64,000 nt of DNA from Fulvimonas soli. GTDB lineage: Bacteria; Pseudomonadota; Gammaproteobacteria; Xanthomonadales; Rhodanobacteraceae. The notes below the pieces were generated by a model that was not told the DNA's origin, did no database searches, and saw only the letters and a program-made list of their open reading frames with translations. The stretch is taken from assembly GCF_003148905.1 (NCBI RefSeq), contig NZ_QGHC01000005.1, forward strand, positions 124,001-188,000, read 5' to 3'. This document shows, in pieces, positions 25,746 to 40,640 of the stretch. Position 1 is the stretch's first letter, and each line of letters begins with the position of its first letter. The translations under genes and the position numbers were made by a program.

Positions 25746-28004
25746 TCATTCGGCGGTGCGGGACAGCACCGCGCGGCCGTCGGCGCCGCGGCGCACGGCG
25801 ATGTCGTAGTGCCGGCCGCGGAGCGCGACGTGGCGCAGCGTGAAGCCGCGCCACGCCGGCGGCAGCAGCGGCGGGTAGGCCTGCGCCAGGCCGGACTCGG
25901 CCAGGCGCAGGCCGGTGAAGCCGAACACGATGTTCTGCAGCAGGCCGCCGGCGGCGGTGAGGAAATAGCCGGTGTTGTTGTTCGCGGTCTCGGTGCGCAC
26001 GTCGAACGGCGGCTGCAGCACGCGCGCGGTGAGGTTGCGCCGGAACCAGTCGCCGGCCTGCGCGGCGTCGCCCATCGCCGCGGCGGCGATCGACAGCGGC
26101 GCCAGGCCCATGCTGTTGGGGTCGCGGCTCGAACGGGTGATCCCCCGCAGCGCGTAGTCGTAGTCGCGGCGGCGCAGGCCGGGGTCCATCGGCAGGTCCA
26201 GCGACGGGTAGGCCAGCAGCGGCAGCGAGCTGCCGCCCCAGGTGTCCTGGTCGTGCGGCACGGCGGGGTCGAACTCCAGGTGGTGCCCGGCGCGCTCGTC
26301 GAAGGGGACGTACAGGCCGTCGGCCACCTCGGTCCAGCGCGGGTCGGCTTGCTCGCCCAGCACCGCGGCCGCGCGCGCGGCGATCCGCAAGGCCTTGCGC
26401 GCGGCGACGTTGGTGAAGGTGTCGTTGGGCACGTCGTTGTAGTCCTCGTCCACCGAGGTGACGTGGAGGATCTCGTAGCGCCGTCGCTCCGGCACGCGGG
26501 CGGCGCGGCTGGCCCAGAAGTCGGCCACCGCGCGGATCACCGGCCAGCCGTGCGCGCGCAGCCAGTCGCGGTCGCCGCTGGCGAGCCAGTACTGCCACTG
26601 CGCGATGGCGATGTCGGCGTTGACGTGGATCTCGCGCTCGCCCAGCACGTAGGCGAAGTGCGGCGTCTGCTCGGTGCCGGCGGCCGGGTCGGCCTCCCAC
26701 GGGTACATCGCGCCGCGCAGGCCGCGCGCGCGGGCGCGCGCCTGCGCGGCCGGCAGCGTGCGGCTGCGGAAGTCGGCCAGCGACTTGGCGCGCTCGGGGT
26801 GCAGCAGCAGCAGCGCGGGCAGCACCCAGGCGTCGCTGTCCCAGAACACGTGGCCGGCGTAGCCGGGGGTGAGGCCGCAGGCACCCGCCGGCAGCGCCGC
26901 GTCCGGCGCGGTGTTGGCCAGCAGGTAGTACAGGTCCGCGTGCACCACGCGCTGCGCCTGCGGGTCGCCGTCGATGCGCACGTCGGCGCGCCACAGGTCG
27001 GCCCATGCCGCCTCGTGCGCCGCGCGCAGGCGGGCGAAGCCGCGATCGCGCGCGGCGCGGGCCAGCGCGAGGTCGGCTTGGGCGTCGCCGCCCCAGCCCT
27101 CGCGCGAGGCGGCGACGAACTTGGCGAAGGCGTAGGTGCGGCCCTTGCGCACGCGCGCCCTGAGGTCGAGCGCCAGGCGGTAGTCGCTGCGGCGCACCCT
27201 GGCAGCGGCGATCTCCAGGCCCGTGGGCACGGCGATCGCGGCGGCCTCGGCCATCGCCGCGCCGCGCTCGGCGCGGCCGTCCAGCCACAGCGTGAGGTCG
27301 CGCGCGTCGCCGCCGGCGGCGCGCACGTGCACGTCGCCGTGGTACCACAGCGGCGCGCGGTCCGGCGTGGCGGGCGGCAGCGGCTCCAGCTTCAGGCCGT
27401 GCGCCGCCACCGCCTCCTGCATCTGGTCGCCGGTGAGGCGCGCCAGCGGGAAGCGCGGCTGCTGCGGCGCCCACAGGTCGAACACGAAGGACAGCTCCAC
27501 CTCGCCGTCGAACTCCGGGGTGATCGACAGCTGCGTGGCGGCCAGGTGCGGGTCGGCCTGGCTGACCAGCGAGACCACCTCGACGCGGGTGTCGCGGCCG
27601 TGGTCGCGGTAGCGGTAGCGGGTGGCGAGGGTGGCGCCGTGCAGGTCGAGGTCCTGGCGGTAGTCCTCGAACACGGCGGGCGAGAGCGGCACCTGGTTGA
27701 GCCAGAAATGGCCGGCGGCCGAGCTGCCGGCGCTGTAGTCGATCTGGCTCCAGCCGGGCACCGCGGCGGGGCGCGCGATGTCGCCCTCGGCGTAGTCCAT
27801 CAGCGCGGCCATGTAGGCGAGGTTGCCCTCGGTGCCGCGCGGGCCGGTGAAGGTGGAGAGGTGGCCGTTGGCGAGCTGGCCGGGGAAGTAGCGGGCGAAG
27901 TCCTGCGCGGTCGCGGTGAGCGTGAAGCCCGGGTCGTCCGCGGCCAGCGCGGGCGCGAGGGGCAGGGCCAGGCAGAGCAGGAGCAGCGGGCGGAGGGCGT
28001 TCAT
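25746..28004 (-). CDS. Exported GH65-family alpha-glucoside hydrolase (paralogue 1)
   Basis: 752 aa with a signal peptide (MNALRPLLLLCLALPLAPALA). The rest is one GH65-type protein: N-terminal beta-sandwich, (alpha/alpha)6 barrel (GYAGHVFWDSDAWVLPALLL, VNADIAIAQWQYWLASGD) and a small C-terminal domain. Candidate catalytic acid is Glu520 (VTSVDEDYNDVPNDTFTN) and base Glu672 (VRTETANNNTGYF). A second Glu in that position is a hydrolase trait; phosphorylases instead have a phosphate-binding Ser/Thr loop. Exported GH65 hydrolases such as the Flavobacterium kojibiose hydrolase and animal PGGHG are the closest functional models recalled. Specificity is unproven. It resembles the second exported GH65 at 29975-32218, indicating duplication. 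Confidence 0.85.
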   Translation of the reverse strand: MNALRPLLLLCLALPLAPALAADDPGFTLTATAQDFARYFPGQLANGHLSTFTGPRGTEGNLAYMAALMDYAEGDIARPAAVPGWSQIDYSAGSSAAGHFWLNQVPLSPAVFEDYRQDLDLHGATLATRYRYRDHGRDTRVEVVSLVSQADPHLAATQLSITPEFDGEVELSFVFDLWAPQQPRFPLARLTGDQMQEAVAAHGLKLEPLPPATPDRAPLWYHGDVHVRAAGGDARDLTLWLDGRAERGAAMAEAAAIAVPTGLEIAAARVRRSDYRLALDLRARVRKGRTYAFAKFVAASREGWGGDAQADLALARAARDRGFARLRAAHEAAWADLWRADVRIDGDPQAQRVVHADLYYLLANTAPDAALPAGACGLTPGYAGHVFWDSDAWVLPALLLLHPERAKSLADFRSRTLPAAQARARARGLRGAMYPWEADPAAGTEQTPHFAYVLGEREIHVNADIAIAQWQYWLASGDRDWLRAHGWPVIRAVADFWASRAARVPERRRYEILHVTSVDEDYNDVPNDTFTNVAARKALRIAARAAAVLGEQADPRWTEVADGLYVPFDERAGHHLEFDPAVPHDQDTWGGSSLPLLAYPSLDLPMDPGLRRRDYDYALRGITRSSRDPNSMGLAPLSIAAAAMGDAAQAGDWFRRNLTARVLQPPFDVRTETANNNTGYFLTAAGGLLQNIVFGFTGLRLAESGLAQAYPPLLPPAWRGFTLRHVALRGRHYDIAVRRGADGRAVLSRTAE

Positions 28005-28056
28005 GCGCGTACCTCGCGGTGGGCTGGCTGGCGTGGCGCGTGCGTCATCGCCGGGA

Positions 28057-28075
28057 TCGCGGCCTTCGGCCGCGA
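28057..28075. repeat. Perfect short hairpin between oxygenase-like and GH65 genes
   Basis: TCGCGGCC-TTC-GGCCGCGA is a perfect 8-bp stem with 3-base loop in the 79-base gap between two minus-strand genes. It resembles the head of the REP sequence at 23083-23106 but lacks the GTGGGA part and any T-tract. Confidence 0.5.
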
Positions 28076-28083
28076 AGAACCGT

Positions 28084-29895
28084 TCAAGGCGCGGGAACGA
28101 CATCGAATGCCACCGTGAGCCGCGCCTCGTCGCTGGCGAAGGGCGCGGTACCGTGCCAGAGGTAGGAAGGGAACAGCACCAGCATCCCCGGCGCGGGCCG
28201 CACGCGGTATTCGGCGGGCAGCGCGGGCCGGGTGAGGATGCCGGGCGCGCCGAAGCCCAGGCTGCCTTCCTCGCCGCGCGGGTCGAGGTCGCCGGGCAGC
28301 GCGACGTAGCAGGCCGAGGAGATCCAGCCGCGCGGGTGCACGTGGCTGGCGTGGTAGCCCGCGCGGCGCAGCCGTACCGACCAGCTGCCGTTGATGCGGT
28401 AGCCGCCGCGGTTGCGCCGGCGCAGCGGGTCGTCGCCGCGGCCGATGTGCTCCAGGTAGCGCCGGATCGGCGCGTCGAAGGCGCGGAACAGCGCGCGGAG
28501 CGCCGGGTCGTCGCTGCGCGCCAGGTCGGCGGTGGTCTCGGTGCCGTGGCGCAGCGACTGGAACAGCAGCGGGTGGCCGTGCGGGTCGTGCAGGCGCTCC
28601 AGGCTGCGCCGCAGGTCGGCGAGGAAGGCGGCGAGGTCGGTCCACGGCGCCGGCGCCTCCAGCCGCTGCGGCAACACCAGCCGCTCGTAGTCGTACAGCT
28701 CGCGGTAGCGCGCGTCGCCGAGCAGCCGCCAGGCGGTGGCCTGCAGCGCGATCAGATACTGGTCGTCGGGCGCGGCGGCGCGCAGCGCCTCGCAGTGCGG
28801 CAGCGCCGCCCGCGCGTCGCCCGCGCCGAGCAGCGCGGCGGCGAGCAGGCTACGCGCGGCCGCATGGGCCGGCGCCAGGCGCAGCGCGCGCTCGGCCAGC
28901 GGCAGGGCGAGCGCCGGGTCGAAGTCGAGCGCGGCCAGGCCCGCGCGCACCAGCAGCGCGGGCGGCGCCTGCGGCCGCGCGGCGCGCCCGGCGAGGCAGG
29001 CATAGGCGCCGCGCGGGTCGCCGGCGCCCTGCAGGATGGCGGCCTTGGCGGCCCGCAGCGCGTCGTCGTCGGGGAAGGCGCGCAGCGCCTCGTCCAGCGC
29101 CGCGGTGGCCTGCGCGGCGTCGCCGCTGCGCATCCACACCAGCCGGGCCAGGTGGTCGTGCGCCTCCACTCGCCGCGGCTCCAGGCGCAGGCAGGCGCGC
29201 AGCGCCTCCTCGGCGCGCGCGTATTCGCCTTGCGCGACCAGGCTGCGTGCCTGCACCTGGTGCAGCGCCGCGCAGCGCCGGCCGCGCGCGAGCGCCTGTC
29301 CGGCGAGGCGCGCGGCCTCGGCGGGCTGCTGCGCGGCGTCCAGCGCGATCGCCAGCGCCTCCGCCGCCGCGGCGTCGTCCGGCGCTTCCTCGGCGCGCCG
29401 GCGGTGCACCGCCAGCGCCTCGCCGAGCCGGCCCAGGGCCGCCGCCGCGGCCACGTGCTGGGCGGCCAGCTCGGCGTCGGGCGGGCCGGCCGCGCACAGC
29501 GGCGCGGCGACGGCGTAGGCCTCGGCCGGGCGCTGCGTGTCGTTGCAGTGGCGCGCCAGCACCAGCGCCGCGCGCGGGTAGCGCGGCGCCGCGCGGCGCA
29601 GCAGCGGCTCGGCCTCCTCCGCGCGGCCCCAGGCCAGCAGCAGCTCGCCGAGCGCGGCCACGCTCGGCGCCCAGCCGGGATCGAGCGCGACGGCGCGGCG
29701 CAGCAGCCGTTCCGCGTCCTCGGGATCGCCGAGCGCCTGCGCGACGCCGGCGAGCAGGCGCAGCGCCTCGACGAAGTCCGGATGTTCCTGCACGAGTGCC
29801 GCCAGCCGCTCGCGCGCGGCGCGGAAATCGCCGGCCCGCAGCAGCGCGTCGATCCGCCGCATGGCGTCGAGCAGGGCGGGCGACGGCGCGGCCAT
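28084..29895 (-). CDS. TPR-repeat protein with C-terminal putative 2OG-Fe(II) oxygenase domain
   Basis: 603 aa, no signal peptide. Residues about 10-400 are tandem TPR-like helical repeats (for example DPEDAERLLRRAVALDPGWA, GEYARAEEALRACLRLEPRR). The C-terminal 200 residues match the putative 2OG-Fe(II) oxygenase fold often found in TonB-receptor sugar loci: SHVHPRGWISSACYV with His518 and His520, and PSYLWHGTAPF with His581, then a basic residue in DEARLTVAF. The usual HxD is HxH here, so metal chemistry may differ. The substrate is unknown. It lies between the two exported GH65 genes. The GTG at 29904 is an alternative start. Confidence 0.72.
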   Translation of the reverse strand: MAAPSPALLDAMRRIDALLRAGDFRAARERLAALVQEHPDFVEALRLLAGVAQALGDPEDAERLLRRAVALDPGWAPSVAALGELLLAWGRAEEAEPLLRRAAPRYPRAALVLARHCNDTQRPAEAYAVAAPLCAAGPPDAELAAQHVAAAAALGRLGEALAVHRRRAEEAPDDAAAAEALAIALDAAQQPAEAARLAGQALARGRRCAALHQVQARSLVAQGEYARAEEALRACLRLEPRRVEAHDHLARLVWMRSGDAAQATAALDEALRAFPDDDALRAAKAAILQGAGDPRGAYACLAGRAARPQAPPALLVRAGLAALDFDPALALPLAERALRLAPAHAAARSLLAAALLGAGDARAALPHCEALRAAAPDDQYLIALQATAWRLLGDARYRELYDYERLVLPQRLEAPAPWTDLAAFLADLRRSLERLHDPHGHPLLFQSLRHGTETTADLARSDDPALRALFRAFDAPIRRYLEHIGRGDDPLRRRNRGGYRINGSWSVRLRRAGYHASHVHPRGWISSACYVALPGDLDPRGEEGSLGFGAPGILTRPALPAEYRVRPAPGMLVLFPSYLWHGTAPFASDEARLTVAFDVVPAP

Positions 29896-29974: not shown

Positions 29975-32218
29975 TCACAGCGCCCTGCGCGTCAGCCGGG
30001 CCTGGCCGTCCGCGCCGCGTTCCACCGCGATGTCGTAGCGCCGGCCGCGGAAGCTGACGCCCTTGAGCGTGAGCCGCCGCCAGCCCGGCGGCAGCACCGG
30101 CGCGTAGGCCTCGCGCAGGCCGTCGTCGTCGATGCGCAGGCCGGTGAGGCCGTAGACGAAGCTCTGCACGAAGCCGGCCGAGGTGGAGAGGATGTAGCCG
30201 GCGTTGTTGGCCACCGTCTCGGTGCGCACGTTGAACGGGGCCTTCAGGAAGCCCGGCAGGTTGCGCCGGATCCACTCGCCCGCGGCCCTGGCGTCGCCCA
30301 GCTCGGCGGCGCCCACGGCCAGCATCACCATCATCATCTCGTTGGGGTCGTCGCCGTGCTCCTTCAGCTCGTGCAGCTGGAACTCGAAGTCGTTGCGGCG
30401 CACCTGCGGCGACATCGGCAGGTCCAGGTTGGGATACATCAGCCAGATCAGCGAGGAGCCCATCCAGGTGATCTTGTCGTGCGGCACCGAGGCGTCGAAG
30501 TCGAGGTGCCGCTGCGCCTTGGGGTCGAAGGGGATGTACATCTTGGCCGCGATCTCGCCCCACTTCGGGTCGGGCGCGGCGCCGACCTGCCCGGCGGCCT
30601 TCACCGCGATCTGCAGCGCCTTGCGCGCGGCGGCGTTGGTGAAGGAGTCGTTCGGCACGTCGTTGTAGGCCTCGTCGGGCGAGGTGACGTGGTGGATCTC
30701 GTAGCGGTCGTGCGCGGCGTCGTAGCTGACGCGGCTGGCCCAGAACTCGGCGATGCCGCGGATCACCGGCCAGCCGTGCTCCTTCAGCCAGGCCTCGTCG
30801 CCGCTGGCGAGCCAGTACTGCCACTGCGCGATGGCGATGTCGGCGTTGACGTGGATCTCGCGGTACACCTCGTAGGCGAAGTGCGGCGTGTGGTCCACGC
30901 CGGTCTCCGGGTCGGCCTCCCACGGGTACATCAGGCCGGCGGCGCCGTACTGCCGCGCGCGCTCGCGCGCCGGCTGCATGGTGCGGCTGCGGAACATCAC
31001 GATCGGCCTGGCGCGCTCCGGGTGCAGCAGCAGCAGCGCGGGGAACACCCACGAGTCGGAATCCCAGAAGGCGTGGCCGGCGTAGCCGGGCGTCAGCGCG
31101 CAGGCGCCCATCGGCCAGGCGGTGCCGACGGTGGTGTTGGACAGCAGGTAGTACAGGTCCGAGTGCAGCGCCTTCTGCACCTGCGGGTCGCCCTCGACCA
31201 CGATGTCGCTGCGCCACAGCGCGTGCCAGGCCTCGCGGTGGCGGGCGAGCAGCGCGTCGAAGCCGGTGCGCCGCGCCTGCTCGGCCAGCGCGCGGTCGGC
31301 GCGCGCGTCGCCGCCCCAGCCCTCGCGCGAGGCGGCGACGTACTTGGTGAAGGCGTAGGTGCGGCCCTTCTCGAACTTCACCGTGAGGTTGAGCGAGAGC
31401 CGGTACGGGGTCTTCTCCAGCTCGGCCTTCTCGACCTTGAGCCCCGCGGGCAGGCCGACGGCGGCGGCCAGCGCCATCGCCGGGCCGCCCTGGGCGCGGC
31501 CGTCCAGCCACAGGGTCAGCGCCCCGGCGTCGCCGTCGGCGGCCGCCACGCGCACGTAGCCGGGGTACCACACCGGCGCGCGGTCGGGGATCGGCACCGG
31601 CTTGTTGTCCAGCGTCTGCCCGCTGGCGATCACCGCGGCGATCATCTCCTCGCCGGTCATCCTGGCGATCGGGAAGCGCGGCTGGTACTCGCTCCACAGG
31701 CGGATCGGGAAGGTGACCTGCGCCTCGCCGTCGAACTGCGGGGTGAGCGCGATGCGCGTGGCGGCGAGGTGGCCGTCGGCCTGGCTGACGAAGGTGGCGA
31801 CCTCCACGTCGGTGGCCTTGTTGGCGTAGGCGAAGCGGTAGCGCGTGGTCAGCGTGCCGTCGTGCATGTCCAGCGTCTGGCGGTAGTCCCGGAAGATGTG
31901 CGGCGCCACCCGCGTGGCGTTGAGCCAGCCGCCGCCGGGGTTGTAGTCGATCTCGCTCCAGCCGGGGATCGCCGCCGGGCGCGCGATGTCGTCCCTGGCG
32001 TAGTCCATCAGCGCGACCATGTAGGCGCGGTTGCCCTCGGTGCCGCGCACCGAGGTCATGGTGGAGAAGTAGCCGTTGGCGAGGTAGCTCGGGAAATAGC
32101 GGTCGAAGTCCGCCGCGGTGGCGGTGAGCAGGAAGCTCGGGTCGGTGGCCGCCGCCGCGGGGCCGGCGGCGGCGAGCAGGGCGAGGGCGGCGAGCAGGCG
32201 GCGTGGCAGCGTGGACAT
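29975..32218 (-). CDS. Exported GH65-family alpha-glucoside hydrolase (paralogue 2)
   Basis: 747 aa with a signal peptide (MSTLPRRLLAALALLAAAGP then AAAA). Architecture and motifs parallel the 25746-28004 gene: GYAGHAFWDSDSWVFPALLL, VNADIAIAQWQYWLASGDE, putative acid Glu516 in VTSPDEAYNDVPNDSFTN and putative base Glu667 in VRTETVANNAGYI. A periplasmic exo-acting alpha-glucosidase is inferred; linkage preference (for example alpha-1,2 or alpha-1,3) is unknown. It starts 29 bases after the permease stop. Two related but clearly diverged copies in one locus suggest complementary specificities. Confidence 0.85.
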   Translation of the reverse strand: MSTLPRRLLAALALLAAAGPAAAATDPSFLLTATAADFDRYFPSYLANGYFSTMTSVRGTEGNRAYMVALMDYARDDIARPAAIPGWSEIDYNPGGGWLNATRVAPHIFRDYRQTLDMHDGTLTTRYRFAYANKATDVEVATFVSQADGHLAATRIALTPQFDGEAQVTFPIRLWSEYQPRFPIARMTGEEMIAAVIASGQTLDNKPVPIPDRAPVWYPGYVRVAAADGDAGALTLWLDGRAQGGPAMALAAAVGLPAGLKVEKAELEKTPYRLSLNLTVKFEKGRTYAFTKYVAASREGWGGDARADRALAEQARRTGFDALLARHREAWHALWRSDIVVEGDPQVQKALHSDLYYLLSNTTVGTAWPMGACALTPGYAGHAFWDSDSWVFPALLLLHPERARPIVMFRSRTMQPARERARQYGAAGLMYPWEADPETGVDHTPHFAYEVYREIHVNADIAIAQWQYWLASGDEAWLKEHGWPVIRGIAEFWASRVSYDAAHDRYEIHHVTSPDEAYNDVPNDSFTNAAARKALQIAVKAAGQVGAAPDPKWGEIAAKMYIPFDPKAQRHLDFDASVPHDKITWMGSSLIWLMYPNLDLPMSPQVRRNDFEFQLHELKEHGDDPNEMMMVMLAVGAAELGDARAAGEWIRRNLPGFLKAPFNVRTETVANNAGYILSTSAGFVQSFVYGLTGLRIDDDGLREAYAPVLPPGWRRLTLKGVSFRGRRYDIAVERGADGQARLTRRAL

Positions 32219-32247: not shown

Positions 32248-33513
32248 CTACTCCGCGGCGGCGCCCGCCGCCACCGGCGCGACGGCGCCGGCGCGGTCGG
32301 ACTCGCGGCGGAAGAAGAACAGCGTGACCAGGATCAGCGTCATCGGCAGCAGCGAGAAATAGAAGGCGTGGATGCCGCCGGCGCGGGCGAACACCAGCGC
32401 GGTGATGCGCGAGCCCAGCGTGCCGCCCAGCGCCGAGAAGATCACGATCAGCCCGGTCATCGCCGCGTGCGCGGGCTTGGGCAGCGCGCCCAGCGCCACC
32501 GAGTTGATCACCGGGTAGATCGGCGCCATCAGCAGGCCGATCAGCGGGATCAGGTAGGCCGCCGCCGGCGCGTCGAGCCAGCCGGCGCCGGCCGGCGCGG
32601 CCGCGTGGCGGGCCAGCGGCAGCGCCAGCACGATCAGCGCGGCCATGCCCAGCACGCACAGGTTGAGCAGGCGGTGCCAGTGCAGGCGGCGCAGCACCTG
32701 GCCGGCCAGCAGGCGGCCGGCCGCGGTGGCGCCGGCGAGCATGCTGGCGAGCTGGATGCTGACCGCGTTGGGCAGGTGCAGGATCTCGTTGTTGAAGGTG
32801 GGCAGCCAGGTGCCGAAGCTCTGCTCGATCAGCACGTAGAGGAAGGCCGAGAGCAGGAACACGTACACCAGCGGGCGCAGGAACAGCGCGCGCATCTGCA
32901 GCAGCGAGCCGACCATCGAGCCCATGCCGTCCTCGCGCGCGGCCGACTCGTCCATCGGCGAGGCGGCGAGCAGGCCGATCACCAGCGCGCAGACGCCGGC
33001 GAGCAGCCAGTACACGCGCAGCCACGACGGGTTGGCCGGGTCGGCGTGGTCGACGAAGGCGCTGAACAGCCAGCCGCCGGCCAGCACGCCGAGCATGAAC
33101 AGGCCCTCGATGGTGTTGGTCAGCCGGGTGTGCCCGGCCTTGTCGGCGGTGAGCAGGCCGATGGAGGAGTACACCGCCACCTTGGCCAGCGCGAAGGAGA
33201 CGCCGATGCAGGCGAACAGGAATTCGGCGGTGTGGAAGCCGGGGCGCAGCGGCATCAGCGTGCACGCCGCGCCGACGATGGCCAGCGCCAGCATCATCGC
33301 GCGGCGGTAGCCGAGGAGCGGCAGGAACGAGGCGACCAGGAACGAGGTGACGGCGATCGGCAGGTCCTTGAACAGCTCCAGCAGGCTGGCCCGCGGCTTG
33401 TCCACGCCGAAGGCGTGGATCGACTGCAGGATCACCGTGCCCACGCTGTTGAGCAGCACGGCGAACACCATGTAGATCAGGGCCAGCGCGACGATCATGC
33501 GGAGTCGGTTCAC
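32248..33513 (-). CDS. MFS sugar permease (FHS family-like)
   Basis: A 421-aa inner-membrane transporter with 12 hydrophobic segments. Features such as NSVGTVILQSIHAFGVDKPRA in the N-terminal half, and IPLIGLLMAPIYPVINSVAL with GLIVIFSALGGTLGSRI in the C-terminal half, fit the fucose/glucose/galactose H+ symporter (FHS) group. It is expected to carry the mono- or disaccharide released in the periplasm into the cytosol for the GH65 phosphorylase. GTG 33513 is chosen because GAGG lies just upstream; ATG 33498 is possible. A strong hairpin separates it from the receptor gene. Confidence 0.8.
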   Translation of the reverse strand: MNRLRMIVALALIYMVFAVLLNSVGTVILQSIHAFGVDKPRASLLELFKDLPIAVTSFLVASFLPLLGYRRAMMLALAIVGAACTLMPLRPGFHTAEFLFACIGVSFALAKVAVYSSIGLLTADKAGHTRLTNTIEGLFMLGVLAGGWLFSAFVDHADPANPSWLRVYWLLAGVCALVIGLLAASPMDESAAREDGMGSMVGSLLQMRALFLRPLVYVFLLSAFLYVLIEQSFGTWLPTFNNEILHLPNAVSIQLASMLAGATAAGRLLAGQVLRRLHWHRLLNLCVLGMAALIVLALPLARHAAAPAGAGWLDAPAAAYLIPLIGLLMAPIYPVINSVALGALPKPAHAAMTGLIVIFSALGGTLGSRITALVFARAGGIHAFYFSLLPMTLILVTLFFFRRESDRAGAVAPVAAGAAAE

Positions 33514-33602: not shown

Positions 33603-36158
33603 TCAGAACTTGTACTTCACCTGGAAGTTGACTTCACGCCCTTCCAGCGGGCGGGCCAGGATCACGCCGTTGGTGCCCGCGGCGGTGCCGAAGATGCGCG
33701 AGTTGCTCTCGGTCAGGCCCAGCTCGTTGGTCATGTTGGTGCCCTGCAGGCGCAGCTCCCAGCTGTCCAGCACGTCCGCCACCACGCCGAAGTCCCAGGT
33801 GTTGTAGGTGCCCAGCTGCTGCAGGCCGGACTGGTCCTGCGTGTGCGGGCCCACGTGGGTGTAGGTGACGAAGGCCAGGATGTCGCCCCACGAGAACGGG
33901 AACTTGTAGCTGGGCGTCAGCATGTAGCGGAAGCGCGGCTGGCGCTGCAGGCGCACGCCGTTGATGCTGGCGCAGGCGGTCTCGCCGGTGACCAGGTTGG
34001 TGTACGGCAGGCAGGACTCGTTGTGCGAGTAGTGGCCGTCGAGGTAGTTGGCCACCACCTGGATGCGCAGGTTCTCGGTCGGGGTGACCGCGCCGGTCAG
34101 GTTGATGCCCTTGGAGTCCGAGCCGTACAGGCGCGGCGAGCCGACCGGCGTGCCGGCGCCGTCGGTGGGCTGGAACAGCAGGCCGTCGAACTGCTTGTGG
34201 TAGGCGCTGATGTCCGCGTACAGGTACTGCGACTGGTACTTGAAGCCGCCCTCGAAGTTGAAGACGCGCTGCATCGGCGCGGTGTTGTCCGAGGGCTGGC
34301 CGCGGATGCCGTTGTCGAAGTCGGGGAAGTGCGCGCCCTTGTTGACGCGGACGTACACGCTCATGTTGTCGGCCAGCTCGTAGTTCACGCCGAAGGTCCA
34401 CGAGGGATGGCTCTTGTCGTACTTGGTGTGCGTGAACGTGCCGTTGCAGGTGGACACGGCGTTGTTGTACAGCGTGTACGGGTTGCCGTCCGTGTCGACG
34501 TTGGAGGTGTTGCACACGGTGGTGGAGGCGTTCTGGTTCTCGATGCGGCCGGACAGGTCGAACAGCCACGGCCCGACGCGCCAGATGTCGGACAGGTAGA
34601 ACGCCTTGTTGGTGGCGGTGCCGTGGTTGGTGATGTTGAAGGTGCCGTTGTCGAGCAGGCCCTGGCCGTCGGTCAGGTAGTAGGTCTGGCCACCGTCGAC
34701 GTAGCTGACCTGGATCGGCCGCGCGTGCGGCGTGTTGGTCATCAGCATCTGGTTGCCCAGCGCCCACTTGTCGTCCTCGGTGTAGTGCGCCAGGTAGATG
34801 CCGGCGGTCAGCGTGTTGCCGTCGAAGATCTCCTTGCTGAGGCGGAAGTCGTTGTTGACGTTCTTCAGGTGCTTGTGGATGAACCACCAGCCCTGGTGGA
34901 TCACGCTCTGGTTGGGGTCCACCGCGCCGCCGCCCTTGACGTAGGTGGCGGTGGCCGAGCCGGCCGGCAGCTCGAAGCCGCCCTGGTCCTTCGGCACGGT
35001 GTACAGCTCGTCGTACAGGCTGGCCGGGTTGGTGCCCGAGAACAGCGCGTTGGTGTTCATGTCGCCGCCGTCGAACAGGAACTTGTCCGAGAGGTTCCAG
35101 CCGTCGCCCAGGTCGTAGTCGAAGTTGCCGCCGAAGAAGCCCATCTTGGCGCCGCGGCCGTTGGCCAGGTTGGCGTCGGTGCCGCCGCCGGGGTAGCCGG
35201 CCAGGTGCACGTGCTGGATCTCCTTGCCGTAGTAGGTGTCCTTCAGCGGGTCGAAGCCCGGGTACGGATGGAAGTCGTCGGTGCCGGACTGGATCAGCGG
35301 GATCGGCGTGATGAACTGGTTGCGGTCGTTGAGGTAGCGCCCGTACAGCGTCATCGTGCCGTTGTCGCTGTCGTGGCTCAGCGTGGCGGTGAACTGGCCG
35401 CCCTTGTCGGCGGCGAACTGCGGGTCGCGCACGCCGTCGGAGTCGCGGTAGAAGCCGCCGATGCTGCCGTACCAGTTGTTGGCGATCGGGAAGCCGAGGA
35501 AGCCGTCGACGCGGCGCAGGTTCTCGTTGCCGTAGGTGACGCCGATGCTGCCGGAGGGCTTGTCGGTGCCGGTCTTGAGCATGTAGTTCTCGGTGGCGCC
35601 GATCTGGCCGTCGGCGAACACCACCGACGGGCCGCCCTGCACGATCTCCACGCGGTCGATGGTGTCGTCCAGGCGGAACATCGAGGTCTGCTCGAAGAAC
35701 GACAGCGAGGGCATGCCGTACAGCGGCGAGCCCATCAGCTGCACCGTGTTGAACGGCGCGTCGCCGCCGCCGGGGAAGCCGGCGATCTCGATGTTGGCGC
35801 CGGTCTGGCCGCCGGTGGATTCCGGCCACAGGCCCGGCGAGATCTTCAGGAGGTCCGCCGTGCTCTTGGGGTTGGCCATCTTGATCTGCTCGGAGGTCGC
35901 GGTGACCACCGAGTAGCTGGTGTCGATCTTCTTCAGGCCGCCGGTGGCGGTGTTGCCGGTCACCACCACCTGCTCCAGGTTCTTGGCGCTTTCGGGATTG
36001 GCCTGCTGCTGCTGCGCCGGCGTCCTCTTCGCCGGCGGCGGCTGGGTCTTCTGCGCGTCCTGCGCCGGGGCGGCGTCCTGGGCCATCGCGGCGCCGCAGA
36101 ACAGGACGGCGGCGATCGCCGCCGACAGGGTCAACCGGGTCAGCTGCTTGGTCTTCAT
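33603..36158 (-). CDS. TonB-dependent outer-membrane receptor
   Basis: 851 aa. Signal peptide (residues 1-26, ending CGAAMAQ), a Gln/Pro-rich linker, then a plug domain beginning with the TonB-box-like LEQVVVTGNT and continuing DTIDRVEIVQGGPSVVFADG. A 22-strand-type barrel ends in FQVKYKF with terminal aromatic residue. No N-terminal STN signalling domain is present, so it is a transporter rather than a transducer. In this locus it should import an alpha-glucosylated compound into the periplasm. GGGGAG lies upstream of ATG 36158. The gap to the upstream GH65-HAD gene is 79 bases. Confidence 0.9.
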   Translation of the reverse strand: MKTKQLTRLTLSAAIAAVLFCGAAMAQDAAPAQDAQKTQPPPAKRTPAQQQQANPESAKNLEQVVVTGNTATGGLKKIDTSYSVVTATSEQIKMANPKSTADLLKISPGLWPESTGGQTGANIEIAGFPGGGDAPFNTVQLMGSPLYGMPSLSFFEQTSMFRLDDTIDRVEIVQGGPSVVFADGQIGATENYMLKTGTDKPSGSIGVTYGNENLRRVDGFLGFPIANNWYGSIGGFYRDSDGVRDPQFAADKGGQFTATLSHDSDNGTMTLYGRYLNDRNQFITPIPLIQSGTDDFHPYPGFDPLKDTYYGKEIQHVHLAGYPGGGTDANLANGRGAKMGFFGGNFDYDLGDGWNLSDKFLFDGGDMNTNALFSGTNPASLYDELYTVPKDQGGFELPAGSATATYVKGGGAVDPNQSVIHQGWWFIHKHLKNVNNDFRLSKEIFDGNTLTAGIYLAHYTEDDKWALGNQMLMTNTPHARPIQVSYVDGGQTYYLTDGQGLLDNGTFNITNHGTATNKAFYLSDIWRVGPWLFDLSGRIENQNASTTVCNTSNVDTDGNPYTLYNNAVSTCNGTFTHTKYDKSHPSWTFGVNYELADNMSVYVRVNKGAHFPDFDNGIRGQPSDNTAPMQRVFNFEGGFKYQSQYLYADISAYHKQFDGLLFQPTDGAGTPVGSPRLYGSDSKGINLTGAVTPTENLRIQVVANYLDGHYSHNESCLPYTNLVTGETACASINGVRLQRQPRFRYMLTPSYKFPFSWGDILAFVTYTHVGPHTQDQSGLQQLGTYNTWDFGVVADVLDSWELRLQGTNMTNELGLTESNSRIFGTAAGTNGVILARPLEGREVNFQVKYKF

Positions 36159-36237: not shown

Positions 36238-39200
36238 TCAGACTGCAATGAAGCTGCCGATGTCGAACGCGGCGACGCTCGGCAGCAGCACGTCCGCGTC
36301 GGCCAGGGCCGGAGCCCGGCCCACCCCGACGGCCGTCATGCCCGCCGCGCGCAGGGCGGCGATGCCGGCCGCGGCGTCCTCCACGCCGAGGCATTCCTCC
36401 GGGGCCACGCCCAGGCCGCTCGCCGCGGCCAGGAAGATCTCCGGGTCGGGCTTGGAGCGCGCGATCCGGTTCGCGTCGACCACGTGGTCGAACAGCCCGG
36501 CGATGCCCAGCCGCTCCAGCAGCAGCGGGGCGTTGCGGCTGGCCGAGGCCAGCCCGGTCTTGAGGCCGGCGCGGCGCACCGCCTCGATCGCCTCGCGCGC
36601 GCCGGGCAGGAGGTCGCCGGGGCCGAAGCGCTGGATCTGCTCGCGGTAGTAGTCGTTCTTGCGCGCGGCCAGCTCCTCCTTCTCGGCCTCGCTGTAGGCG
36701 CGCGGCGCGCGCTCCAGCAGGATCTCCAGCGAGCCGCGGCGGTCCACGCCCTTCATCCGCTCGCCCACCGCCTCGTCGAACGGCACGCCGAGCTGCACGG
36801 CCAGCCGCCGCCAGGCGGCGTGGTGCACCACCGCGGTGTCGGCGATCACCCCGTCGAGGTCGAAGATCACCGCCCGGATCGGCCGCGGCAGGCGGTAGAC
36901 CGCGGCCTCGCGGCCGCCGTGCGGCAGCTCGAGCGCCTGCCCGGCGCGCAGCCGCTGCGGCCGGCCGCCGTGCAGGAAGGCCAGCCCGTCGCCGGCGGCC
37001 AGCTCGTAGCGCACGCCGCGCGCGTCCACCTGCACGCGCAGGCGCGCGTCGCGCCAGCGCAGGCCGAAGCGGTAGCCGCGCCAGGCCGCCGGCAGGCGCG
37101 GGTCGAGCGAGGGCAGGCCGCCGACCACGCGCAGCCCGCCGAAGCCCCAGGTCAGCGCCAGCCAGCTGCCGGCCATCGCGGCCATGTGCACGCCGTGGGC
37201 GGCGTTGCCGTGCAGGTCGTCCAGGTCCACCCGCAGGGTGTCCAGGAAATAGCGCCAGGCCTTGTCGTCCAGCCCCACCTCGGCGGCCATCACGCTGAAG
37301 GTGGAGGCCGACAGGGTGGAGTCGTGCACCGTCACGCCTTCGTAGTAGTCGAAGTTGCGCCGCTTGCCGGCGCGGTCCACCGACTCGCCGGCCAGCATCA
37401 GCGCGAGCAGGGTGTCGGCCTGCTTGCACACCTGGTAGCGGTAGAGGGTCAGCGGGTGCAGGCGCAGCAGCAGCGGGCGCTTGCCCTCGCCGCCCGCGTG
37501 CGCGGGCAGGCGCGGCTTGTCGAGGAAGCCGTCGTCCTGCGGGAAGATGCCGAGCGCGCCGTCCACCGGCAGGTGCATCGCGTCCGCCGCGCGCCGCCAG
37601 TCGTCGATCTCGCGCGGGTGCAGGTCCAGGCGCGCGGCCAGCGCCGCGTAGGCCGCCGGCTCGGCCTGCGCCATCCAGTCCGCCACCGCCGCCGCGTCGC
37701 GCAGGTGCCGCTGCGCCATGCGGTTGGTGTAGTGGTTGTTGTCGACGAGCGCCGAGTACTCGTCCGGGCCGGTCACCGCGTGGATGCAGAAGGCGCCGCC
37801 GCGGCGCGGGCTGAAGTGGCCGACGTCGAGCCAGATGCGCGCGGTCTCGAACAGCATCTCGGCGCCGCGGTCGCGCAGGAAGGCGTGGTCGCCGCTGGCG
37901 TCCACGTACAGCCGGATCGCCCAGGCCACCGCGGCGTTGATGTGGTACTGCGCCGAGCCGCTGGGGAAGTAGGCCGAGCACTCGTCGCCGCCGATGGTGC
38001 GCCAGGCGTACAGCGCGCCGCGCCCGTGGTTCATCTCGCGCGCGTGCGCGCGGGCGCGGTCGAGCGTGCGGTAGCGGTACTCCAGCATGTTGCGCGCCAG
38101 CGCCGGCGCCACGTTGACCAGCGCCGGCAGCATGAACACCTCGGCGTCCCAGAAGTAGTGGCCCTCGTAGCCCTCGCCGGTGAGCCCCTTGGCGGCGGCG
38201 CTGCCGTGGCCGTCGCGCGAGCAGGACTGGAACACGTGGAACAGGTTGAAGCGCAGCGCCTGCTCGGCCGCCGGATCGCCGTCGATGGCGAGGTCGGCGT
38301 GCTCCCACAGCGGCGCCAGCGCGCGGCGCTGGCCGTCCAGCAGCGCGTCGTAGCCGGCGGCGGCGGCGCGCCCGAGGCTGCGCGCGGCGCGGTCGAGCAG
38401 CGCCGCGTCGGGCTCCTCGCCGTGCGGGCGGCTCCAGGCGTAGGCGACGAACTTCTCCAGCACCAGCGACCGGCCCGGCGCCAGCGTGCCGTCGTAGGCC
38501 TGCAGCACGCCGTGGGTGCTGCGCCCGGCGTAGCGGGGCGCGAGCGAGGGCGCGTGGCGGTGGCGCTGCGCGCAGACCACGCGGATGCCGCTGCGCGCGG
38601 TCTGCTGGCGCAGCCAGGCCAGACGCTCGTCGGCGGCCGCGTCCTGCGTGCTGAAGCCGCCGTCGACGCGGACGCCGATGCGCGGGTCGGCGCCCTGCTC
38701 GGCGGCGTCGCGGGCGGTGTCGATGGAGGATTCCAGGGTGACCGGCCCGGCGTAGTCCACCGAGTGCACCTCGTAGCGGATCGCCAGCAGGCCGGGATCG
38801 TCGAGCGAGACGATGCGCTCGGCGCGGATCTCCAGCGTGGCCCCGTCCGGCGAGCGCCAGCGCAGGCGGCGGCGGTAGCAGCCCTCGCGCAGGTCCAGCC
38901 GCCGCTCGAAGTCCAGCCATTCGCCCTCGGCCAGGCGCAGCGGCGCGTCGCCCAGGCGCAGCTCGATGCGGGTGGCGTCGGCGACCGGGATGCGCGTGTC
39001 GGTATGGCTGGCGAAGCCGGGGAAGCGCTCGTGGTACTCGATCGGCGTGCGCTCCCAGGCGGCGGCGAGGAAGCTGCCCTGGCTGGGGCTGGGGTCCTCC
39101 TCCAGGCCGCCGCGCACGCCGAGCGCGCCGTTGGCCAGCGCGAACAGGCTCTCGTCCTGCGCGAAGCCGGCCGGCGCGGTGCCGCGGCGGACGATCGACC

Positions 39201-39333
39201 ACGGGTCGACCGCGGCGGCCGGCTCCGGCGCGCAGCCTGCTTCTGCCGCCGGCATGCGGGCCGGCGCCGCCACGTGCTTGTCCAACGGATTCCCCCCGAG
39301 AATCAGGATGTTTTCTCTGTTTCCGTCAGGCAT
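36238..39333 (-). CDS. GH65 glycoside phosphorylase fused to beta-phosphoglucomutase-like HAD domain
   Basis: About 1031 aa, cytoplasmic. Residues to about 810 form a GH65 phosphorylase: barrel motifs GYEGHYFWDAEVFMLPALVN, general acid Glu525 in VTGPDEYSALVDNNHYTN, and the phosphate-loop segment VHDSTLSASTFSVMAAEVG that takes the place of the hydrolases' base. Residues about 815-1030 are a HAD domain like beta-phosphoglucomutase (VIFDLDGVIADTAVVH, KTGLASASRN, SKPDPEIFL, GVEDAAAG). Predicted two-step reaction: disaccharide + Pi to beta-Glc-1-P, then Glc-6-P. Acceptor specificity (kojibiose, trehalose, nigerose or other) is open. Start uncertain: ATG 39333 lacks a Shine-Dalgarno, while TTG 39285 has GGGGGG 6 bases upstream. 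Confidence 0.88.
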   Translation of the reverse strand: MPDGNRENILILGGNPLDKHVAAPARMPAAEAGCAPEPAAAVDPWSIVRRGTAPAGFAQDESLFALANGALGVRGGLEEDPSPSQGSFLAAAWERTPIEYHERFPGFASHTDTRIPVADATRIELRLGDAPLRLAEGEWLDFERRLDLREGCYRRRLRWRSPDGATLEIRAERIVSLDDPGLLAIRYEVHSVDYAGPVTLESSIDTARDAAEQGADPRIGVRVDGGFSTQDAAADERLAWLRQQTARSGIRVVCAQRHRHAPSLAPRYAGRSTHGVLQAYDGTLAPGRSLVLEKFVAYAWSRPHGEEPDAALLDRAARSLGRAAAAGYDALLDGQRRALAPLWEHADLAIDGDPAAEQALRFNLFHVFQSCSRDGHGSAAAKGLTGEGYEGHYFWDAEVFMLPALVNVAPALARNMLEYRYRTLDRARAHAREMNHGRGALYAWRTIGGDECSAYFPSGSAQYHINAAVAWAIRLYVDASGDHAFLRDRGAEMLFETARIWLDVGHFSPRRGGAFCIHAVTGPDEYSALVDNNHYTNRMAQRHLRDAAAVADWMAQAEPAAYAALAARLDLHPREIDDWRRAADAMHLPVDGALGIFPQDDGFLDKPRLPAHAGGEGKRPLLLRLHPLTLYRYQVCKQADTLLALMLAGESVDRAGKRRNFDYYEGVTVHDSTLSASTFSVMAAEVGLDDKAWRYFLDTLRVDLDDLHGNAAHGVHMAAMAGSWLALTWGFGGLRVVGGLPSLDPRLPAAWRGYRFGLRWRDARLRVQVDARGVRYELAAGDGLAFLHGGRPQRLRAGQALELPHGGREAAVYRLPRPIRAVIFDLDGVIADTAVVHHAAWRRLAVQLGVPFDEAVGERMKGVDRRGSLEILLERAPRAYSEAEKEELAARKNDYYREQIQRFGPGDLLPGAREAIEAVRRAGLKTGLASASRNAPLLLERLGIAGLFDHVVDANRIARSKPDPEIFLAAASGLGVAPEECLGVEDAAAGIAALRAAGMTAVGVGRAPALADADVLLPSVAAFDIGSFIAV

Positions 39334-39376
39334 GGCGGATACCGGCGCCGTTCGGATGGGGCGCGAGCATTGCAGC

Positions 39377-39410
39377 AATTGTTATCGATATCAAGATATC
39401 GATAACAATT
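39377..39410. promoter_or_regulatory. Perfect 34-bp palindrome, probable LacI-family operator
   Basis: Arm AATTGTTATCGATATC (39377-39392), two-base spacer AA, and its exact complement (39395-39410). Each arm contains a CG-centred ATCGAT core of the type bound by LacI-family dimers; the two CG centres are 14 bp apart, so two overlapping operators are possible. It is AT-rich inside very GC-rich DNA and lies in the divergent region between the lacI-type gene and the GH65-HAD gene, positioned to block the sugar-locus promoter. Confidence 0.82.
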
Positions 39411-39617
39411 CGTGTGGCGCGCGTTCACGGAGCCCGGCGGCGGCCCTGCCGCCGCCGGGCCGCCGCGGCGCCGGCCTTCCGGCGGGCCAGGCGCGGAAGG
39501 GCGGGCGCCGGCCGGCCGGGGTTAGACGCCGGGGCGCCAAACCGACACACTTGCCCGGGCGCCGCGGCCCGGCCGCGCCGGCGCCGTTCCGTCCCCACGC
39601 AGCCACGAGGCCCGCTT

Positions 39618-40640
39618 TTGAGTCGCTCCCGCCCAGACAAGCAGCAACGCGCCGGCGCGGCCTCGAACCCGAACATGACCATGGCCGACCTGGCGCGGCT
39701 GGCCGGGGTCTCGAAGATCACCGTGTCGCGCGCGCTGGCCGACAGCCCGCTGGTCAACCCGCAGACCCGCGGGCGCATCCAGGAGCTGGCGCGCGAGCAC
39801 GGCTACAAGCTCAACGTGAGCGCGCGCAACCTGCGCCTGCGCCGCAGCCACACGGTGGCGGTGATCGTCGAGATGAAGCCGACCAGCGACCGCACCATGC
39901 TCGACCCGTACCCGCTGACCCTGCTCGGCGGCATCTCGCAGGAGCTCACCGCGGCCGGCTACAGCGTGCTGCTGACCACCCGCCAGGGCGCCAGCGCGGC
40001 GGCGGTGCAGGCGGCGGACGGGCTGATCCTGCTCGGCCAGGGCGCGCGCCAGGACGCGGTGCGCCGCTTCGACAAGCTGGGCCTGCCGATGGTGGTGTGG
40101 GGCGCGCAGGGCGGGTCCGACGCGCACGTGGTGATCGGCAGCGACAACCGCCTGGGCGGCGCGCTGGTGGCCGGGCACTTCATCCGGCTGGGCCGCCGGC
40201 TGCCGGTGTTCGTGGGCAATCCCAGCCACCCGGAGATCTACGAGCGGCTCAGCGGCTTCGTCGACGCGCTGGCCGAGCACGGGGTGAAGCCGCTGCTGAT
40301 CCGCCGCGACGAGTTCACCCTGGCCTCCGGCACCGACGCGGTGCACTCGCTGGCCGCGCGCAAGGTGCCGTTCGACGCGCTGTTCGCCTGCAACGACCTG
40401 TTGGCGATGGGCGCGATCCGCGCCCTGCAGGGTCTGGGCCGCGAGGTGCCCGGCGACGTGGCGGTGGTGGGCTACGACGACATGCCGCTGGCGGCGAGCT
40501 TCCTGCCGCCGCTGAGCTCGGTGCACCAGGACTGGCAGGAGGGCGGCGTGCGGCTGGCGCGGAAGATGCTGGCGCTGATCCGCGGCGAGCCGGCGCGCTC
40601 GGAGATGCTGCCGGTCAGCCTGGTCGTTCGCTCCACCTGA
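39618..40640 (+). CDS. LacI-family transcriptional regulator of the alpha-glucoside locus
   Basis: About 340 aa. The helix-turn-helix is TMADLARLAGVSKITVSRAL followed by the hinge helix (NVSARNLRLRRS). The effector-binding domain shows the GntR/GalR-like fold (VIGSDNRLGGALVAGHFIRL; ALFACNDLLAMGAIRAL; VAVVGYDDMPLAASFLPP). It is expected to repress the divergent GH65-HAD-receptor operon through the palindrome at 39377-39410 and be released by a sugar. TTG 39618 is preceded by GAGG; ATG 39675 is an alternative that places the helix-turn-helix at the extreme N-terminus. The 3' end overlaps the convergent pilS gene by 26 bases. Confidence 0.88.
   Translation: MSRSRPDKQQRAGAASNPNMTMADLARLAGVSKITVSRALADSPLVNPQTRGRIQELAREHGYKLNVSARNLRLRRSHTVAVIVEMKPTSDRTMLDPYPLTLLGGISQELTAAGYSVLLTTRQGASAAAVQAADGLILLGQGARQDAVRRFDKLGLPMVVWGAQGGSDAHVVIGSDNRLGGALVAGHFIRLGRRLPVFVGNPSHPEIYERLSGFVDALAEHGVKPLLIRRDEFTLASGTDAVHSLAARKVPFDALFACNDLLAMGAIRALQGLGREVPGDVAVVGYDDMPLAASFLPPLSSVHQDWQEGGVRLARKMLALIRGEPARSEMLPVSLVVRST

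Follow-up and report, generated by a model that had tools for sequence, protein, structure and literature searches.

LacI-type operators are even palindromes of 16-22 nt with a central CG, and overlapping sites of this family, at a preferred distance of about 13 bp, are described in the main text of PMC4052901 upstream of 110 operons; their geometry is left unexplained there and an interaction of two dimers is doubted. The same text lists the overlapping GntR operators upstream of gntKU, which it reports as functional, and the tandem LacI-family sites of RafR and ScrR, which lie at 21-22 bp upstream of sugar genes (PMC4052901). In Escherichia coli MG1655, the two sites at gntK are TGTTACCGATAACA and AGTTACCCGTAACA, with centres 13 bp apart. 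Outside the family, QacR-type regulators provide a case in which a pair of dimers reads a long palindrome, each from another face of the DNA. QacR belongs to the TetR family, whose DNA-binding domain is unrelated, and can serve as a mechanical analogy only.

The pair of predicted operators that we describe here lies in a 64,000-nucleotide stretch of the Fulvimonas soli genome, which is called the window in the following. It falls into the same layout class as the sites of the 110 operons (PMC4052901), with adjacent sites in one upstream region, at 14 bp in all 83 cases found here as against about 13 bp there. It is also comparable to the system of GntR, itself a LacI-family protein, where two overlapping LacI-type operators precede a sugar-acid operon, but gntKU differs in its 13-bp distance, its recognition bases and its gluconate genes. 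RafR and ScrR likewise have two sites for one regulator, although theirs are two helical turns apart and these are 14 bp apart, a calculated offset of about 120 degrees. The main text of PMC4052901 contains no word starting with 'Xanthomon'. Overlapping pairs of LacI sites have already been described; what is new in the predicted pair is a well conserved 14-bp case with unexplained covariation. Together with its relatives it forms a natural series of one regulator, with a near-constant recognition helix, and one promoter, in which the 14-bp pair is found across two families alongside variants with a single core or with cores 19 or 66 bp apart.

The original prediction had singled out a perfect 34-bp palindrome with 16-bp arms and a two-base spacer, which we reproduced at 39377-39410 as AATTGTTATCGATATC AA GATATCGATAACAATT, with a complementarity of 100% between the arms. 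It is flanked by a LacI-family gene on the plus strand and by a gene for a GH65-β-phosphoglucomutase fusion on the minus strand. The elements in question are:

39377..39410, no strand: 34-bp perfect palindrome, read as a putative composite in which two LacI-type operator cores abut; taken as 20-bp operators, they overlap
39380..39393, no strand: predicted core of operator 1, TGTTATCGATATCA, centred on the CG at 39386-39387
39394..39407, no strand: predicted core of operator 2, AGATATCGATAACA, centred on the CG at 39400-39401 and abutting operator 1
39618..40640, plus strand: lacI-type regulator gene, with a probable TTG start and a conserved body from about 39675

The palindrome is the longest perfect inverted repeat in the window (spacer up to 8 nt), and when the window was dinucleotide-shuffled 40 times, the maximum arm length was 9 to 14 bp, compared to 16 bp in the real sequence. 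With a GC content of 0.235, against 0.73 window-wide, it forms an AT-rich island. It is present in a single copy, no further one being found in the window with up to three mismatches allowed. The shuffles and the conservation in relatives led us to reject a chance origin, and the strongest argument against chance is that the pair of cores recurs, in 83 of the 86 distinct loci that could be tested (see below). A second perfect inverted repeat, GC-rich and with 13-bp arms and a 3-nt spacer, adjoins the operator pair on the lacI side (39432-39460); its arm length is within the range of the shuffles.

The palindrome is best read as two predicted LacI-type operators, each with a central CG of its own. 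Two CG-centred cores 14 bp apart had been part of the original prediction, and they are found at 39386-39387 and 39400-39401; their centres are exactly 14 bp apart, and the two 14-bp cores touch without having a base pair in common. In the window each core is an imperfect palindrome: the two halves of core 1 disagree at position 3, and those of core 2 at positions 1 and 3. Both are CG-centred, with LacI-like half-sites, and the inner side of operator 2 starts with A, not T, in all 83 loci. The suggestion of a probable LacI operator holds insofar as there is a LacI-family neighbour gene and the cores are centred on CG, but not in the form of a single, over-long operator. We rejected a single long operator because both CG-centred cores are conserved and single cores stand alone in a few loci, whereas the alternative suggestion of side-by-side operators is borne out by the 14-bp spacing, which is kept in relatives.

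For the comparison with relatives, we searched with the LacI protein, obtained 98 relatives and took the best 80 of these 98 as named loci, nearly all of which belong to Rhodanobacter, Dyella, Oleiagrimonas, Rudaea and their relatives. In searches of open-licence papers, no title or abstract dealt with this operator in these genera. Cores were located singly, the spacing was read off, and pairs were scored only afterwards. Two cores exactly 14 bp apart were found upstream of lacI in 66 of 81 loci (the 80 named ones and the window's own). In 9 further named loci, where GH65 is not beside the lacI upstream region, the pair is upstream of GH65 (L041, L045, L056, L061, L066, L075, L086, L091, L103). 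Since L051, L059 and L110 cannot be judged, they were left out, and the pair is therefore present in 75 of 78 testable named or own loci. In a sister family, whose LacI proteins are about 60-63% identical, it lies upstream of GH65 and beyond the 3' end of lacI in 8 of nine genomes; the ninth locus (G776) is on the same contig as L106 and was counted once. This gives a total of 83 out of 86 distinct testable loci with the pair upstream of a GH65 gene (78 named or own and 8 of the sister family). The absence of the palindrome upstream of orthologous loci, which would have spoken against the original prediction, was thus not what we observed.

In all 83 double-core loci the spacing is 14 bp, while base identities vary among the loci. 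The 28 bp of the two cores occur in only 31 distinct versions, and 17 of the 28 positions are invariant (66 loci); the loci are related and are thus not independent observations, yet neither are they copies of each other. Perfect arms of at least 16 bp are seen in only part of the loci and reach 20-26 bp in some genomes. The three exceptions, which have GH65 but not the pair, are L085, with cores 66 bp apart, and L104 and L106, each with a single core at GH65, indicating that the pair is not indispensable. Across the family, 70 of 197 genomes contain an exact TGNTATCGATANCA, compared to 4 for the reversed control, and some of the matches are away from lacI. A class-wide scan of 369 genomes with the 22-bp centre (up to 3 mismatches), in which the family is represented by only two genomes and the rest of the order by three, matched 10 genomes, namely the window's without any mismatch and 9 more with 3 mismatches; as the reversed control matched 8 genomes, the class-wide matches at 3 mismatches are attributable to chance.

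The gene downstream of the pair encodes a single protein of about 1030 residues, whose best relatives of solved structure are the phosphorylases of maltose and kojibiose, and is followed by further genes of the cluster:

36238..39333, minus strand: target gene, GH65 phosphorylase-like protein fused to β-phosphoglucomutase, with a probable ATG start at 39333
33603..36158, minus strand: TonB-dependent receptor gene, next in the cluster
32248..33513, minus strand: MFS transporter gene, cluster member
29975..32218, minus strand: second GH65 gene, kojibiose-hydrolase-like, below the NCBIfam cut-off
25746..28103, minus strand: third GH65 gene, kojibiose-hydrolase-like, below the NCBIfam cut-off, with a provisional start

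The pair suggests how an uncharacterised GH65 cluster for oligosaccharides may be controlled in the Rhodanobacteraceae and a sister family. Promoter-like boxes are present on the GH65 strand:

39389..39394, minus strand: predicted -35 box TTGATA of the GH65 promoter, which includes the invariant AA/TT spacer
39366..39371, minus strand: predicted -10 box AATGCT, 17 nt from the -35 box, weak

When the loci are oriented with GH65 to the left, the spacer of the palindrome is AA in 83 of 83 (TT on the GH65 strand), so that the -35-like box (TTGATA in 70 loci, TTGACA in 10, TTGTTA in 3) is directed at GH65 every time; the spacer would be asymmetric because it is part of the -35 box. In the -10-like box 17 nt further on, A at position 2 and T at position 6 are each found in 71 of 83 loci. 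A consensus promoter scan returned no promoter here, although the two boxes are kept 17 nt apart across the 83 loci. Of the six -35 bases, operator 1 overlaps five, and it extends over the nearest nine of the 17 bases that separate the two boxes; operator 2 has one -35 base in common, the rest of it being upstream of the box. Transcription would start near 39359, giving a short leader ahead of the probable ATG at 39333.

The predicted pair is part of the putative GH65 promoter and not of lacI. In 17 of the 83 loci it is separate from the region upstream of lacI itself, and its neighbour in these loci is GH65. An MFS gene faces lacI in six loci (L041, L045, L059, L061, L066, L075), and the sequence between the two contains either one core or cores spaced by 19 bp, from which it follows that the 14-bp pair is a property of the GH65 promoter and not of the regulator gene. 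An operator of lacI itself, as the main role of the pair, was rejected as well, since rearranged loci retain the pair at GH65. The divergent region named in the original prediction is accordingly the correct place, between lacI and GH65, but the association is with the GH65 promoter and not with the divergent region as such.

The regulator matches the Pfam families PF00356 (LacI HTH, 49.5 bits) and PF13377 (Peripla_BP, a sugar-sensor domain, 99.3 bits), both above cut-off. Among the curated NCBIfam families, 19 models matched at E ≤0.001, none of them at its cut-off. The probable start at TTG 39618 would place a short basic tail N-terminal to the HTH (39618-39675), and similar tails, variable in sequence, are present in many relatives. 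With one mismatch allowed, TGNTATCGATANCA has no match in the 3.77-Mb genome other than the two cores at this locus, and an exact TGNTANCGNTANCA matches core 1 only, compared to 3 matches per strand for the reversed control pattern. With the patterns used there is one such place in the genome, which makes the regulon look local: the genome scan proposed for its definition recovered both cores, but a wide regulon was not found with TGNTATCGATANCA (≤1 mismatch) or TGNTANCGNTANCA (exact).

We analyzed how the bases of the composite change by sister contrasts on the lacI nucleotide tree (75 loci), numbering positions (j) from the composite dyad. At position 11, the fifth base of the outer half-sites, there were 9 matched double differences and 4 one-sided ones, and at position 14 there were 8 matched, 4 one-sided and one other. 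The bases match across the dyad in 70 of 75 loci at position 11 and in 67 of 75 at position 14, where base frequencies predict 36.9 and 44.1, respectively. Positions 15 and 16 had 0 matched and 19 one-sided differences, positions 2 and 3 had 0 and 16, positions 5 and 8 had 2 matched each (one-sided 8 and 6), and positions 17-20 had 8 matched and 60 one-sided. For positions 11 and 14 together, which were picked post hoc, Fisher tests gave p = 1.6e-6 against 15-16, 9e-6 against 2-3 and 2.8e-7 against 17-20. Symmetry within an operator never exceeded expectation in the 75 loci: the outer half-sites covary with each other, not with their inner partners.

Across the LacI family, base identity at positions 5 and 4 is tied to two residues of the recognition helix, and there are degenerate classes that include both T and A (PMC2978694). 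In all 66 loci compared, the recognition helix is SKIT-(V/I)-SRAL, with V/I as the sole difference (the eight sister-family proteins are outside this comparison). As the helix is constant apart from V/I, T, A and G at position 5 appear to be tolerated, and a change in the recognition helix is unsupported as the driver of the outer half-site changes. The N-terminal tail showed no pattern as a driver in an inspection by eye. The two outer half-sites change jointly, for which there is no simple account, as hairpin formation, a uniform correction of the arms and a changed recognition helix all fail. A modest proposal is that only the outer bases can be tuned freely, the inner ones being partly tied to the -35 box, and that both outer ones are under the same pressure. 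The covariation bears on whether the composite is read as such or as independent operators, a question accessible with short DNA and a single small protein.

We consider it very probable, from comparative sequence evidence, that the GH65-β-phosphoglucomutase promoter carries a composite operator of two LacI-type operators, with abutting 14-bp cores and centres 14 bp apart, at which the regulator represses. The neighbouring LacI-type protein would bind it when an inducer sugar is absent and block RNA polymerase at the head of a cluster for oligosaccharide uptake and breakdown (GH65-β-phosphoglucomutase, TonB receptor, MFS transporter and further GH65 enzymes); a glucose disaccharide or its product would lift the repression. 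Two independent operators would not lead one to expect the covariation of the outer half-sites, which counts against this reading, as do the imperfect symmetry of each core, the weak -10 box, the three loci with GH65 but no pair, and the relatedness of the 83 loci with their 31 versions. Binding by a different regulator is very unlikely. Similar cores are common to many LacI-type proteins, and the neighbour's binding is predicted from sequence, but the motif is found at one place in the genome with the patterns used, between lacI and GH65, and lacI, GH65 and the pair occur together in 83 of 86 testable loci. Further, a 44% identical paralogue in the same genome has no CG-centred core in the 500 nt before its gene, only one repeat with 6-bp arms and a 4-nt spacer.

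Whether two dimers would be present on the composite operator at the same time, or one dimer at either site, is about evenly balanced. Occupancy of one site or the other but never both, a sub-case of the composite operator in which the promoter is simply blocked more often, is plausible, if somewhat short of an even chance. Either operator alone would touch the -35 box, and dimers at about 13 bp are argued to be unable to interact, as their contact zones overlap (PMC4052901). At 14 bp, however, the 14-bp cores have no base pair in common, and a crude geometry, with input dimensions not taken from a structure, places adjacent heads about 32 Å and the dimer cores about 99 Å apart, with no obvious clash; moreover, 83 of 86 loci have the 14-bp spacing even as the bases vary. 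We regard it as a tentative and rather doubtful possibility that the composite is read as one unit by two dimers together, which would flank the -35 box at an angle of about 120 degrees around the helix, the outer half-sites being functionally coupled. To our knowledge, there is no LacI-family structure with such a two-dimer binding mode. If true, this one-unit reading would explain the preferred distance of about 13-14 bp.

Two further explanations concern the symmetry of the palindrome. An RNA or DNA hairpin (attenuator or cruciform) whose complementarity is maintained for its own sake would account for the covariation of the arms at two positions across the dyad and for the perfect arms of 20-26 bp in some genomes, but it is extremely improbable: judging by the conserved promoter-like signals, the GH65 transcript starts only downstream of the palindrome, a search of 39250-39700 gave no terminator-like site, and the complete lack of matched differences at j=15 and 16, and near the loop at j=2 and 3, is unlike a stem. 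Close inverted repeats are also known substrates for template-switch correction, and replication could copy one arm onto the other in a concerted mutation, in which case the operators would be real and their symmetry partly a by-product. Such template switching, which is compatible with the composite operator, is consistent with the excess of matched over one-sided changes at j=11 and 14, with the matched doubles among the mostly one-sided changes at j=17-20, and with the near-invariant recognition helix, which makes the changes look nearly neutral. We nevertheless consider it unlikely, since matched changes would then be expected about as often at j=15-20 and j=2-5, and changes there are mostly one-sided.

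Beyond operator 2, toward lacI, a third core is present in 11 loci (L044, L050, L057, L058, L060, L063, L065, L071, L082, L089, L097), at 41 bp in ten of them and at 39 bp in L050; some of these cores are imperfect. It possibly serves the control of lacI or looping. Agreement of the third core with the outer base (5:1 vs 1:4, p = 0.08, 11 loci including L050, from a hand-compiled table) is suggestive only. In several genomes of one genus (g17), an exact TGTTATCGATAGCA core is found at another locus (G114:C11:719067, G134:C1:4057763, G144:C8:654812 and others), which is perhaps a second target or the site of another LacI regulator.
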